Source of the DNA: Maribacter sp.
GTDB lineage: Bacteria; Bacteroidota; Bacteroidia; Flavobacteriales; Flavobacteriaceae
Direction: 5' to 3'
Assembly (NCBI GenBank): GCA_022865355.1
Contig: JALHST010000057.1
Location: 1-48,147, forward strand
Length of the DNA: 48,147 bases
The number at the start of each line of letters is the position of its first letter. Position 1 is the first letter of the stretch. Shown here in pieces: positions 7,776 to 34,806 of this stretch. The notes beneath the pieces were generated by a model. The model made no database searches, had not been told where the DNA came from, and saw only the letters and a program-made list of their open reading frames with translations. The position numbers and the translations under genes were made by a program.

Positions 7776-9674
7776 ATGAGTGACGCTATTAAGCATGAAT
7801 GTGGTATTTCAATAATACGTTTGTTAAAACCCTTAGAGTACTATAAGGAAAAATACGGTACGGCATTTTATGGGGTCAATAAAATGTACCTCATGATGGA
7901 AAAACAGCACAACCGGGGGCAGGATGGCGCTGGTTTTGCGAGTATTAAATTAGACGTCGCACCGGGCGAAAGATACATGAGTCGGGTGCGATCGGTCGCC
8001 CAACAGCCCATTCAGGATATTTTTGACCAGATCAATGACCGCATTAACCGAGCCAACAAGGAGCATCCAGAAGAAATCGACAACGTTGCTTGGCAGAAGA
8101 AGAACATTCCTTATATCGGTGAGCTTTTATTGGGTCACGTGCGCTATGGCACCTTTGGCAAGAATAGTATTGAAAACGTACATCCTTTTTTAAGGCAGAA
8201 CAATTGGATGCATCGAAACCTGATCGTAGCGGGTAATTTTAACATGACCAATGTTCATGAGCTTTTCGACAACTTGGTACAATTGGGTCAACATCCAAAG
8301 GAAATGGCCGATACGGTCACGGTCATGGAAAAAATTGGCCACTTCTTAGACGATGCCGTTGCCAAGCTCTACTAACAGATCAAAAAGGAAGGCTATAATA
8401 AACAAGAGGCCTCCCCCTTAATAGCCGAACGTCTAAAGGTTTCCAAAATTCTTAAAAGAGCGGCCAAAAACTTCGACGGGGGGTATGCCATGGCAGGATT
8501 ATTGGGACATGGCGATGCTTTTGTTTTACGGGATCCCGCAGGGATACGACCTGCCTATTTTTATCAGGATGACGAAGTGGTCGTAATCGCCTCTGAACGA
8601 CCTGCTATACAAACCGTTTTCAACGTGAAGTTCGAGGACGTGCATGAACTTGATCCAGGACATGCCATTATAATCAAGAAAAATGGCAATGTATCGATCA
8701 AGGAAATAGTAACGCCTACCGAACGCAGGGCGTGTTCATTTGAACGCATTTATTTTTCACGAGGAAGCGATAAAGAAATTTACCAGGAACGAAAAGAATT
8801 GGGGAAATTGTTATTTCCGCAGATTTTGGAGGCCATCGACCATGACATTAAGAATACCGTCTTTTCGTACATTCCGAATACGGCAGAGACTTCCTTTTTC
8901 GGCATGGTGAAACAAGCCCAAAATTATTTGAACAAAAAGAAAGAGGAGCAGATCTTAGCAATTGGCTCGAAAATTAGTCGGGAAGAGTTGCACGAAATTT
9001 TGGATATTCGGCCGCGGATCGAAAAAGTTGCGATCAAAGATGCGAAACTACGGACTTTTATTACCCAGGACAGTAGTCGGGACGATCTAGTGGCCCATGT
9101 TTACGATATCTCGTATGGTTCTGTTGAGCAAGGCGACAACCTGGTTATCATTGACGACAGTATCGTACGGGGCACGACCTTGAAAAAAAGTATCCTCAGA
9201 ATCCTAGACCGATTATCCCCAAAGAAGATAATCGTCGTTTCCTCAGCTCCACAAATCAGATATCCCGATTGCTATGGCATCGACATGGCCAAATTAGAAG
9301 ATTTTATTGCCTTTAAGGCAGCCTTGGAACTGCATCGTGAAAGAAATACGATGCCCCTTGTTGATGCGATCTATAAAAAATGTCTTGATCAGGTAAGTAC
9401 GAAAGACAAGGAGGTCATAAATTATGTAAAGGAATTCTACGCCCCTTTTAGTACCCTTGAAATTTCCTTAAAAATCGGGGAATTGTTGAGTCCGCCAGAT
9501 ATTAAGGCCGAAGTTCAAATCATCTATCAAACCGTAGAAAGCCTGCATAAGGCCTGTCCAAAAAATTTAGGGGATTGGTATTTCACCGGAAATTATCCAA
9601 CACCGGGTGGAAATAGAGTCGTAAATCGCGCATTTATCAATTTTTACGAAGGAAAAAATCAAAGAGCGTATTAG
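7776..9674 (+). pseudogene. purF: Amidophosphoribosyltransferase interrupted by one in-frame stop
   Basis: The enzyme commits PRPP to purine synthesis using ammonia from glutamine. The gene reads as 632 codons in one frame except for a TAA at 8373-8375. Upstream of it are 199 residues with the nucleophile Cys in HECGISI (residue 9) and the glutaminase signature NRGQDGAGFAS. Downstream, the frame continues without any shift through the rest of the glutaminase domain (GGYAMAGLLGHGDAFVLRDP) and the PRPP site NLVIIDDSIVRGTTLKKS to a normal end. The break lies inside the glutaminase domain, so neither half should work alone. One base change (for example GAA to TAA) explains it. It could be a real nonsense mutation, a sequencing error or, less likely, read-through. 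The rest of the gene shows no decay, which favours an error or a very recent event. Confidence 0.88.
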
Positions 9675-9681
9675 CCATTAG

Positions 9682-9719
9682 TATCGACCAAATACACAAA
9701 AAAGTGCATTTCGTCGATA
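9682..9719. repeat. Long imperfect inverted repeat after purF
   Basis: TATCGAC (9682-9688) and GTCGATA (9713-9719) are exact complements. Between them AAAT/ATTT and CAC/GTG also pair around an AAAAAA loop, with single mismatches. The structure begins 7 bases after the amidophosphoribosyltransferase stop. It lacks a T-run on either strand, so it is not a standard intrinsic terminator; it may stabilise the 3' end of the message or be a protein-binding site. Confidence 0.6.
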
Positions 9720-9767
9720 ATAATCCACTTTCGTCGGTATTTAGCGCTTTTTGGAAGCCCACACCAC

Positions 9768-9775
9768 TATATTAG
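9768..9775 (+). promoter_or_regulatory. -7 promoter box of small RNA copy 1
   Basis: TATATTAG resembles TAnnTTTG with one change (A for T). It ends exactly 5 bases before the conserved RNA block, the same distance as in the other three copies. Copy 4 has the same TTAG ending. Confidence 0.6.
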
Positions 9776-9780
9776 GTCTG

Positions 9781-9851
9781 CCATAGCATAAGTAGGTTAA
9801 GTTCATGGTAAGATTTGGGGCAAAAAAGGTGGAGACTTCTCCACCTTTTTT
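9781..9851 (+). ncRNA. Small RNA, copy 1 of 4
   Basis: A likely RNA of about 70 nt. The 40-base conserved block (9781-9820) begins with CCAT, which can pair with ATGG at 9805-9808 to close a 5' stem-loop. It continues with single-stranded AAGATTTGGGG. The 3' end is a terminator: GGTGGAG (9829-9835), loop ACTT, CTCCACC (9840-9845 region), then six T, with flanking A-tract and T-tract able to extend the stem. I do not recognise the family; Flavo-1 or another Rfam entry is possible and untested. Confidence 0.75.
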
Positions 9852-10019
9852 ATTTTACATACCCTTTATTTGGATTTGCGTTTCAAAGAAATTCGAATGA
9901 TGATTTTCGATTTTCTTTCGCACACATTCTGAATATACCAAAGAACTCAAACCGAATTCACAATCGACTTTCATTAAAAAATACACTTCACCCGATAAAA
10001 TGGAAATTCATCCGGGATG

Positions 10020-10051
10020 TTGCCCCCGGGCATTTTAAAACTATATTTTTG
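10020..10051 (+). promoter_or_regulatory. Promoter of small RNA copy 2
   Basis: TATTTTTG at 10044-10051 is an exact TAnnTTTG match. A TTG at 10020-10022 lies 21 bases upstream of it, within the spacing described for Bacteroidota promoters. The conserved RNA block begins 5 bases after the box. Confidence 0.7.
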
Positions 10052-10056
10052 GAGGA

Positions 10057-10126
10057 CCATAGCATAAGTAGGTTAAGTTCATGGTAAGATTTGGGGAAAA
10101 AAGGCGGGGCAATGCCCCGCCTTTTT
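10057..10126 (+). ncRNA. Small RNA, copy 2 of 4
   Basis: The 40-base block at 10057-10096 is identical to copy 1. With the preceding A, ACCAT can pair with ATGGT at 10081-10085. The terminator stem is GGCGGGG/CCCCGCC around loop CAATG (10103-10121), followed by five T. Compared with copy 1, both sides of the stem have changed together, which supports a selected RNA hairpin. Confidence 0.77.
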
Positions 10127-10378
10127 ATTTTCAAAAATCTTTTTTATACTCCGCTTGACTTTATGTCGTTTCAAAACCTTAAAATCGATATTGTTCCCAT
10201 GCCTATTGGTAGGGAGCGACTTCTTTGACGTCCCACTTAACTTTCCATAAAGTTCAAATGGATACCTATTGAAATTTGCTGACTATGAACTATTTCTTTA
10301 CTATAAGCTTGGAAGAAGCATTTTGACCCTATATATTGAACTTCATCTAAAAGATTTTATGCAGGAACACCAATGGGT

Positions 10379-10386
10379 TACATTTG
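10379..10386 (+). promoter_or_regulatory. -7 promoter box of small RNA copy 3
   Basis: TACATTTG is an exact TAnnTTTG match and is followed by the same 5-base spacer (GAGGA) as in copy 2. A TTTT lies about 20 bases upstream in place of a -33 TTTG. Confidence 0.7.
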
Positions 10387-10391
10387 GAGGA

Positions 10392-10462
10392 CCATAGCAT
10401 AAGTAGGTTAAGTTCATGGTAAGATTTGGGGAAAAAAGGCGGGGCAATGCTCCGCCTTTTTT
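10392..10462 (+). ncRNA. Small RNA, copy 3 of 4
   Basis: The 40-base block (10392-10431) is identical to copies 1 and 2. The terminator is GGCGGGG and CTCCGCC around CAATG, with one G-T wobble relative to copy 2 that keeps the stem, then six T. Copies 2 and 3 also share the 12 bases before the block, so they are probably the most recent duplication. Confidence 0.77.
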
Positions 10463-10584
10463 ATTGCTGATATCCAATTGTTTAGCAAGTTAAACCCGAC
10501 TTTTAAAGTATGATTGAAAGCATTTCCTAGAGAAAATTATACCATAATTTCTTAAAATTTCTTTTTTATTTCCCACAATACCAG

Positions 10585-10592
10585 TAATTTAG
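10585..10592 (+). promoter_or_regulatory. -7 promoter box of small RNA copy 4
   Basis: TAATTTAG, one base from TAnnTTTG, ends 5 bases before the conserved block. The same TTAG variant is found in copy 1. Confidence 0.6.
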
Positions 10593-10597
10593 TACCG

Positions 10598-10669
10598 CCA
10601 TAGCATAAGTAGGTTAAGTTTATGGTAAGATTTGGGACGAAAAGGGCGGAGACTTCTCCGCCCTTTTCT
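10598..10669 (+). ncRNA. Small RNA, copy 4 of 4
   Basis: The block at 10598-10637 differs from the other copies at two positions. The C-to-T change at 10621 turns the internal A-C mismatch into a pair, so the 5' stem becomes CCATA/TATGG. The terminator is GGGCGGAG, loop ACTT, CTCCGCCC, then TTTT. It ends about 20 bases before the sod terminator on the opposite strand. Confidence 0.75.
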
Positions 10670-10684
10670 ATTTGACAAAAAACC

Positions 10685-10717
10685 ACAAAAAAACCTTTCA
10701 TTAAAAAATGAAAGGTT
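10685..10717 (-). terminator. Intrinsic terminator of sod
   Basis: AACCTTTCATT (10692-10702) and AATGAAAGGTT (10707-10717) form a perfect 11-bp stem with an AAAA loop. On the minus strand it is followed by a run of T. It lies 24 bases after the sod stop. Confidence 0.88.
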
Positions 10718-10740
10718 CTATTTAGGGTATCGGTCAATAC

Positions 10741-11349
10741 TTATTTATTCGCCTTATATAATTCAGCAACTTTGTCCCAATTGATTATATTGTAAAAGGC
10801 ACCAATATAGTCGGGCCTTCTATTCTGATAATTTAGATAATAGGCATGTTCCCAAACATCGATCCCTAATATGGGAAAACCCCCACAGCCCGTTTTCGGC
10901 ATTAAGGGATTATCCTGGTTCGGAGTGGAGCATATTTCTACCTTGCCCCCTTTGTGTACACATAGCCAAGCCCATCCTGATCCAAATCGCGTAGCTGCCG
11001 CGTTACTGAATTTCTCTTTAAAAGCATCAAACGAACCAAAGGCATCGTCCATGGCCTTCGCCAATTCACCTGATGGTTTTCCACCACCTTTCTGAGACAT
11101 TATTGTCCAAAAAAGCGAATGATTATAAAAGCCCCCGCCGTTGTTTCTTAGGGCCATATTCGACATATCCATATTCTTGAGAATATCTAAAATGGACATA
11201 TTTTCGAGATTGGTGTCTTTAATAGCATTGTTCAGATTGTTCGTGTAGCCGTTATGGTGTTTCGTATAATGTATTTCCATGGTTCTGGCATCAATATATG
11301 GTTCCAATGCGTCATAGGCATAGGGTAATTTAGGTAATTCAAAAGCCAT
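10741..11349 (-). CDS. sod: Fe/Mn superoxide dismutase
   Basis: Converts superoxide to hydrogen peroxide and oxygen. The 202-residue protein has no signal peptide, so it is cytosolic. The four metal ligands can be placed: His in [11 protein letters not shown] (about residue 27), His in [11 protein letters not shown] (about residue 76), and Asp and His in [13 protein letters not shown] (about residues 163 and 167). Iron versus manganese use cannot be told by eye, hence the neutral symbol. It is a single-gene unit with its own -7 box and terminator and is divergent from the AddA-like gene. Confidence 0.96.

Positions 11350-34728: not shown

Positions 34729-34806
<78 letters not shown>

Follow-up and report, generated by a model that had tools for sequence, protein, structure and literature searches.

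The window analysed here is a 48,147-nt contig of a Maribacter species of the Flavobacteriaceae (GenBank assembly GCA_022865355.1, contig JALHST010000057.1, forward strand). Between purF and the superoxide dismutase gene sod it carries an array of four closely similar units, interpreted below as genes of a small regulatory RNA (sRNA) that is predicted to pair with the translation starts of other genes. A 40-nt block occurs four times on the + strand, at 9781, 10057, 10392 and 10598, the first three blocks being identical and the fourth differing from them at two sites, block position 24 (C to T) and position 40 (G to A). A -7 type box, TAnnTTTG or TAnnTTAG, ends exactly 5 nt before the block in 4/4 copies (TATATTAG at 9768..9775, TATTTTTG at 10044..10051, TACATTTG at 10379..10386 and TAATTTAG at 10585..10592, all +). 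A G/C hairpin with a T-run lies 3' of every block, corresponding to an intrinsic terminator at 9821..9851 (+) in copy 1 and at 10096-10127, 10431-10463 and 10637-10669 in copies 2-4. An earlier note, made from the sequence alone, had described these blocks, boxes and hairpins, and both their positions and their differences were reproduced.

The four predicted sRNA genes lie on the + strand at 9780..9851 (copy 1, first type, with C at block position 24), 10056..10126 and 10391..10462 (copies 2 and 3, middle type), and 10597..10667 (copy 4, the last, sod-adjacent type, with T at block position 24). The 5' end of copy 1 is placed on the purine lying 5 nt downstream of the box, and the ends of the other copies were assigned in the same way. 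On the + strand the four units fold with z-scores of -3.2 to -4.3 relative to shuffles, and the minimum-energy fold contains a 5' hairpin in 4/4 copies, giving two predicted hairpins per RNA. Two stretches of the block are of particular interest as candidate pairing stretches: S1, TAAGTAGGTTAA, at 9789..9800 (+) in copy 1 and identical in copies 2-4 (10065-10076, 10400-10411 and 10606-10617), and S2, GATTTGGG, at 9812..9819 (+) in copy 1 and likewise identical in the others (10088-10095, 10423-10430 and 10629-10636). When the 3.97-Mb genome of this Maribacter was searched with the 22-mer core of the block, allowing up to 3 mismatches, only the four window copies were found; the other strand gave 0 matches, as did a reversed control.

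The upstream syntenic neighbour is purF (7776..9674, +), and the downstream, convergent one is sod (10741..11349, -). The purF of the window is broken by an in-frame stop codon, TAA, at 8373-8375 (..CTC TAC TAA CAG..), while the gene of a relative (L116) reads through uninterrupted to 632 amino acids (aa), so that either a nonsense change or a sequencing error is involved. A further hairpin, AACCTTTCAT/ATGAAAGGTT, at 10692-10718, lies just past copy 4 and is possibly the terminator of sod on the - strand.

Conservation, synteny and distribution

The exact 22-mer is present in at least 117 stretches from named genomes, whose genera include Maribacter, Zobellia, Arenibacter, Flagellimonas/Allomuricauda, Cellulophaga, Robiginitalea and Eudoraea, as well as Aquimarina, Kordia, Christiangramia, Dokdonia, Ulvibacter and others. 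Distribution was assessed with two covariance models, R1 being built from the four window copies, and R2, broader, from 107 sequences. R1 matches were found in 242/299 Flavobacteriaceae genomes (214/249 of those of good quality) and in 195/236 genera, with 1-7 matches per genome. R2 matched 66/395 genomes sampled from the order and 10/395 sampled from the class, of which 64/66 and 10/10, respectively, belong to Flavobacteriaceae. The two order-level exceptions are a strong match in a 74%-complete genome and a weak match (E 4.9e-5). Because R2 matches outside the family are limited to these two, one of them weak, the RNA appears essentially confined to Flavobacteriaceae in the sampled genomes, under strict search filters.

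A search of the family for the purF-sod locus, proposed as a check in the earlier note, showed it to recur. Among the 117 listed stretches (up to 8 kb each), 113 contain purF and/or sod, the others being L064, L075, L078 and the short L086. The copies share the strand of purF in 97/97 stretches with purF, and are opposite to sod in 93/93 with sod. Over 137 distinct loci in named and other genomes, for which both purF and sod were required and arrays of identical sequence were dropped, the intergenic region has a median length of 697 bp and the copy number is 1 in 25 loci, 2 in 24, 3 in 46, 4 in 31, 5 in 9 and 6 in 2. Copies away from purF and sod, beside other genes, are seen in L064, L075, L078, L171 and L186-L190, that in L171 lying between genes that resemble priA and rpsF (named by eye).

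Within arrays of at least two copies, the base at block position 24 depends on the place of the copy, with C in 105/112 first copies and 141/143 middle copies, and T in 103/112 sod-adjacent copies; the bases following ATTTGGG likewise depend on copy position. The copy positions are thus orthologous across genera, and the maintenance of separate copy identities in blocks that are otherwise much alike suggests that each copy is under selection of its own.

The near-invariant parts of the RNA are UAAGUAGGUUAA, in the loop of the 5' hairpin, and GAUUUGGG, which lies in the linker that precedes the terminator. Among the 107 model-selected sequences, the core AAGTAGGTTAAGTT.ATGGTA(AG)ATTTGGGGC is almost invariant, and the 5' hairpin arm is variable in both length and sequence. 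In 291 full units, picked by the 22-mer and hence with those 22 positions fixed by construction, a purine always precedes the CC and the box is strongly conserved. A possible likeness of AGGUUAAGU to a segment of 16S rRNA was considered and dropped.

Paired changes in the terminator stem, which had been noticed among the four window copies, are a general feature: over 97 distinct sequences, the window copies included, two-sided changes occur at 9/10 pairs and 98.6% of cells are paired. In the same alignment the 5' stem is 98.5% paired, with two-sided change at 1/7 pairs. The alignment was fitted to the structure of the model, which biases these counts towards it, but shifted versions of that structure have much lower scores. 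For the proposed 5' stem-loop, pairing is conserved but covariation is slight, so that the data are consistent with this stem rather than proving it. Lineages differ in the linker, GGTAAGATTT or GGTAGATTT, by a 1-nt indel that would break any reading frame, in agreement with the earlier statement that no peptide is conserved. Conservation across the family, a box and a terminator for each unit, terminator covariation and the lack of a shared frame, together with the leader complementarity described below, all support the proposal of a multicopy regulatory RNA of about 70 nt.

Shared promoter repeats and leader complementarity

Upstream of many copies lies a direct repeat, [N]TT[CT][AG][AT]C, with halves 20-21 bp apart and the second half near -51. 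Both halves occur upstream of 69/142 first, 96/156 middle, 11/31 single and 9/117 last copies, against shuffled means of 0; the classes are approximate, since 'first' and 'middle' include some copies from loci without sod, and the shuffles are single-base shuffles of related sequences. In the window, both halves are present at copy 1 (CATTTCGTCGAT at 9707..9718 and ACTTTCGTCGGT at 9727..9738, 20 bp from the first) and at copy 3 (CATTTTGACCCT at 10319..10330 and AACTTCATCTAA at 10339..10350, again 20 bp apart), one is present at copy 2 (AAATTCATCCGG at 10004..10015, with no second motif match), and none at copy 4, where a conserved promoter stretch, CACAATACCAGTAATTTAGT at 10574..10593, replaces the repeats (all +). 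In Maribacter-like loci generally, last copies carry a conserved CACAATACCAGTAaTTTAGT stretch instead of the repeats; in some members this stretch includes a short palindrome, AATACCAGTATT, unlike the repeats of the other copies. The suggestion that the copies might be differently timed is supported to the extent that the repeats are common in first and middle copies and mostly missing at the sod-adjacent copy, which in Maribacter-like loci has another conserved promoter.

A search of the Maribacter genome for the promoter-repeat pattern gave three perfect matches: copy 3 itself, C179:354-384 (L256) and C102:18131-18161. About 90 nt downstream of the last of these lies CATACTTAACTTACTTGCATG, a single base upstream of the start codon of the gene for a 147-aa protein, termed T1; this sequence forms 14 contiguous pairs with the sRNA core, two of them G-U (worked out by hand). 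The same leader site is among the matches to the S1 complement in this genome. Orthologues of T1 were found in 30/199 genomes of the family, each with at least 3 sRNA matches. Common to their leaders are the repeats, a conserved TCCCAAATC and, immediately upstream of the ATG, an ACcTA.Tta element; the latter two are the reverse complements of the two invariant sRNA stretches, in antiparallel order. Repeats 19-21 bp apart are present in 29/30 T1 leaders, and in 0/31 sod and 0/65 addA leaders used as controls. The T1 leaders (L272-L301) also share GGgtG.caTacatCGA and GGTTATaa elements.

Complementarity was quantified by a two-site test, in which CCCAAATC with at most 1 mismatch must be followed by TTAACCTAC with at most 2, counting one row per distinct leader and using 50 shuffles. 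This test is passed by 20/30 T1 leaders (shuffled mean 0.14, maximum 1). Excluding the Maribacter leader through which T1 was discovered, 19/29 pass (shuffled 0.18, maximum 1), and S2 complementarity alone is found in 27/29 (shuffled 1.8). The duplex predicted for the Maribacter T1 leader has an energy of -25.3 kcal/mol, which 0/500 shuffles equalled.

The T1 protein matches no Pfam or NCBIfam family, the best being DUF559 with an E of 0.047, below its cut-off, and a sequence comparison with solved structures returned only repeat proteins over a 20-residue stretch. Its AlphaFold model (pLDDT, the predicted local distance difference test score, 83, with lower values near residues 91-110) has structural matches to a Vsr-like endonuclease fold (3hrl, E 7e-4, TM score 0.48 by query length; I-Bth0305I, E 2e-3), and on this model T1 is a 147-aa protein of Vsr-like fold.

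A second candidate target, T2, unrelated to T1, was found through the two-element pattern alone. It is a lipoprotein of about 122 aa, present in 24/167 genomes, all with at least 3 sRNA copies; the Maribacter copy is at G000:C115:13736-14104. These 24 leave out the second, weaker paralogues L421-L424, the query L344, and L349. Many T2 leaders keep CCCAAATC or CCCGAATC, and ACCTAC before the ATG. The two-site test is passed by 10/24 (shuffled mean 0.10, maximum 1), a figure that is partly ascertained, as 4 of the 10 (L397, L404, L412 and L416) already matched the discovery pattern; without those four, 6/20 pass (shuffled 0.12, maximum 2), and S2 alone is found in 17/20 (shuffled 1.2). Conserved two-site complementarity is seen in T1 and T2 leaders, with 0/35 sod and 0/64 addA leaders passing the same test. 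The T2 protein matches no Pfam family, and its beta-rich model is lipocalin-like at best, with no Foldseek hit at E 0.001. Further upstream, TTCAACGAAG is found in 13/24 T2 leaders and a [CA][AG]TCGA element in 21/24. The leaders L397-L420 share TaC.TCG-AATttta.CAATA, probably a promoter class related to that of T1.

The two-site signature was also sought without regard to gene. CCAAATN{3,33}TAACCTACTT, a pattern applied first across the family, picked up mainly the sRNA's own antisense strand; its 18 listed non-self matches were inspected, and the pattern was replaced by a self-excluding one. In 249 genomes the latter gave 50 matches in 40 genomes, compared with 15 for a reversed control (hand count). 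At 20 of the 49 sites examined (G020 was left out), the site lies at the first ATG of an open reading frame of at least 90 aa, compared with 4.6% of random positions in the same loci; the sites are not independent, as T1 and T2 recur and these 20 include mutual homologues. Other genes so identified encode a lipoprotein-like protein in three genera (G129, G005 and G044; the two of these three that were compared are 34% identical), two small T9SS sorting-domain proteins, and CAP-domain, PKD-domain, subtilase, DUF5060 and Ig-domain proteins, with signal peptides and lipoprotein motifs judged by eye. These matches, each in a single genome or a few, suggest further targets, several of them envelope or secreted proteins. 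Several other matches of the two patterns, including L354, L370, L379, L382, L390, L355 and L385, have no start nearby and were set aside as chance. The two-element pattern is also present upstream of a gldL-like gene, in the gldK-gldL intergenic region of two genera (L332/G058 and L333/G245; named by eye), which makes gldL a possible target in certain lineages.

Cis targets were considered and rejected. For sod and purF the duplex energy is somewhat better than for mononucleotide shuffles, yet there is no conserved site, the two-site test having covered the sod and addA leaders but not those of purF; addA leaders were also scored in this way as candidate cis targets. The purF score derives in part from the GGGG of the RNA against a GC-rich upstream stretch, and a 9-pair match in the Maribacter sod leader, GGACTTAAC, is not conserved in relatives.

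Proposed mechanism and alternatives

We consider it probable (about 0.78) that the array encodes base-pairing sRNAs that block translation initiation and are partly co-regulated with a target. Each unit would be a self-contained gene for a trans-acting RNA of about 72 nt, with its own housekeeping-type promoter and terminator. The RNA would display UAAGUAGGUUAA in the 5' hairpin loop and GAUUUGGG in the linker. The linker would pair with CCCAAAUC in the leader and the loop with UUAACCUACUU at or beside the AUG, in antiparallel order, and the resulting duplex over the start codon region would block translation initiation. The repeats are common to many promoters of the RNA and to nearly all T1 leaders, so that a single regulator may control the RNA and T1. 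Acting through the common repeats, it would drive both, with the RNA limiting T1, thereby constituting an incoherent feed-forward loop, in which the paralogues would add dose and the last copy would add a different promoter input.

This regulator may be a LytTR-type response regulator. The E. coli LytTR response regulator YpdB is described as binding a direct repeat of GGCATTTCAT, and LytTR sites more generally as two direct or inverse repeats of 9-11 nt with 11-13 nt between them (PMC4847170). The extended repeat found here, TGCATTTCATC, with halves 19-21 bp apart, resembles the YpdB site, and its spacing at first and middle copies (20-21 bp) agrees with the low end of the LytTR range, the 19 bp of some T1 leaders (19-21 bp) falling just short. 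The likeness is one of sites only, and LytTR sites are said in the same account to share no common consensus (PMC4847170).

A broader scheme, which we put forward tentatively and would rate at somewhat under even odds, gives the RNA the central post-transcriptional role in an envelope regulon spanning the family. A LytTR two-component system would induce surface-protein genes and the sRNA array via the same promoter element, and the RNA, pairing through both of its stretches at the start codon, would cap the translation of those genes. The cap would be tuned from lineage to lineage by the number of copies in the array (1-7), and the sod-adjacent copy would link a second signal.

Several results weigh against the proposed pairing and co-regulation. 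T1 and T2 account for part of the family, in one clade only (30/199 and 24/167 genomes), compared with the presence of the RNA in about 80%. The two-site test is failed by 10/30 T1 and 14/24 T2 leaders, mostly in S1, and the duplex predicted for the Maribacter T2 leader is unexceptional, 8% of shuffles being as good. T2 leaders lack the repeat pair at 19-21 bp (0/24), having it at 30-31 bp in 6/24. Within the Maribacter genome, neither the S1 complement alone (93 matches vs 328 for the reversed control) nor the promoter-repeat pattern (17 matches vs 13) is enriched. Under a looser start rule, the excess of starts at pattern sites is weak (26/49 vs 36%). Among substitutions within the sites, those that preserve pairing are only weakly favoured (A to G in 23/37 and C to T in 15/25), and none of the 48 changes at T keeps a pair, the substitution test being too weak to decide on pairing. 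The 5' stem, as noted above, shows little covariation.

The alternative that survives best, although we regard it as unlikely, is that the RNA pairs with the same leaders and activates them, by opening an inhibitory structure or protecting the mRNA. Conserved pairing alone gives no sign of regulation, and in F. psychrophilum the loss of the sRNA Rfp18 is reported to lower two protease mRNAs (PMC9723704). Repression is favoured by the position of the best S1 match, whose end, in the majority of T1 and T2 leaders, coincides with the AUG or is no more than a few bases away, and by the precedent of FopS, an sRNA that pairs beside the start codon in a member of the Bacteroidota and is described as a repressor (PMC11697453).

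Less probable still, at long though not negligible odds, is that CCCAAATC and TTAACCTACTT are protein sites, with the sRNA acting as a decoy or carrying them by chance on the opposite strand, and with no RNA-RNA pairing. The weakness of the substitution pattern in favour of pairing would fit, as would the roughly 30 near-invariant nt, which exceed the need of a seed, and multicopy protein-titrating RNAs such as CsrB/RsmZ exist. Against this, the leaders hold the reverse complement of the RNA stretches, when a shared RNA-binding protein would require the same strand; the spacing of the elements varies greatly among leaders, which is ill-suited to a single DNA-binding footprint; and their antiparallel order is conserved.

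That the units are a mobile or relic repeat without function is very improbable: it could draw on the few copies in stretches without purF or sod listed above, but is contradicted by the orthologous, syntenic positions across genera, by the presence of exactly four copies at one locus in the Maribacter genome, and by searches for mobile spread, in which 75 nt of copy 1 gave no blastn match (E 0.01) among 72,556 plasmid and 50,697 phage records and the 24-position core pattern no exact match in viral contigs.

Relation to known RNAs

The RNA as read here, a base-pairing sRNA, has no family match in Rfam 15; permissive thresholds gave only sub-threshold matches in the array, largely on the terminators. 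Membership of a known family such as Flavo-1, raised in the earlier note, is not supported, as Flavo-1 gives no gathering-level match in the window and is missing from the 83 weak matches in 9660-10760. The sole gathering-level Rfam match in the window is a tRNA gene at 34730-34803 (-). FopS (RF04319) scores 20.2 bits at copy 1 and 17.5 at copy 2, compared with a cut-off of 56, and its best match in the Maribacter genome, 22.9 bits, is also sub-threshold and lies away from the array. The FopS architecture, a single-stranded 5' seed followed by a terminator, is not seen here, all four copies having a 5' hairpin with 98.5% of its pairs kept across relatives.

Two RNA surveys concern the same bacterial family. 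In Flavobacterium psychrophilum, Rfp18 is described as conserved outside the species, as required to keep two protease mRNAs at normal levels, and as pairing via its third stem-loop (PMC9723704), while the present RNA has two predicted hairpins. Some of the 85 newly described F. psychrophilum RNAs may be this RNA; the words purF and superoxide are absent from the main text of that paper (PMC9723704). In F. columnare ATCC 49512, sRNA candidates from RNA-seq, none matching Rfam, have been reported (PMC5395568). In the open-licence literature, among the matches listed, no sRNA was described at the purF-sod locus or as containing these stretches.

Among the closest known systems is FopS/GibS of Bacteroides thetaiotaomicron, described as many paralogous RNAs of about 65-70 nt with canonical promoters, a terminator hairpin and pairing at the translation starts of envelope genes, including susC mRNAs; the FopS genes fall into several genomic classes (9 intergenic, 4 antisense and 1 from a 3' untranslated region), number 12-15 per genome in Bacteroidaceae and have a single-stranded 5' seed (PMC11697453). 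The RNA described here resembles FopS/GibS in belonging to the same phylum and in its multiple copies, similar length, own promoters, terminator and predicted pairing at starts. It differs in its tandem arrangement at purF-sod, its predicted 5' hairpin and its two pairing stretches. Near-identical sRNAs in tandem or multiple copies, with signal-dependent promoters and base-pairing at mRNA starts, are also exemplified in other hosts by Qrr, LhrC and PrrF, with which the likeness is one of arrangement, no homology being claimed.

On this reading the RNA is of a known kind, the multicopy base-pairing sRNA, rather than a new one. Its hosts, the Flavobacteriaceae, include marine polysaccharide degraders and fish pathogens, and are a family in which regulatory RNAs have been little explored; within it, this RNA, absent from Rfam, is kept in about 80% of sampled genomes and 195 genera, usually at one fixed locus. 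The pairing stretches, the two conserved targets with their leader sites and the shared promoter element are explicit predictions, through which a role of multicopy sRNAs in Bacteroidota, known in this analysis mainly from FopS, would become testable in a second lineage.

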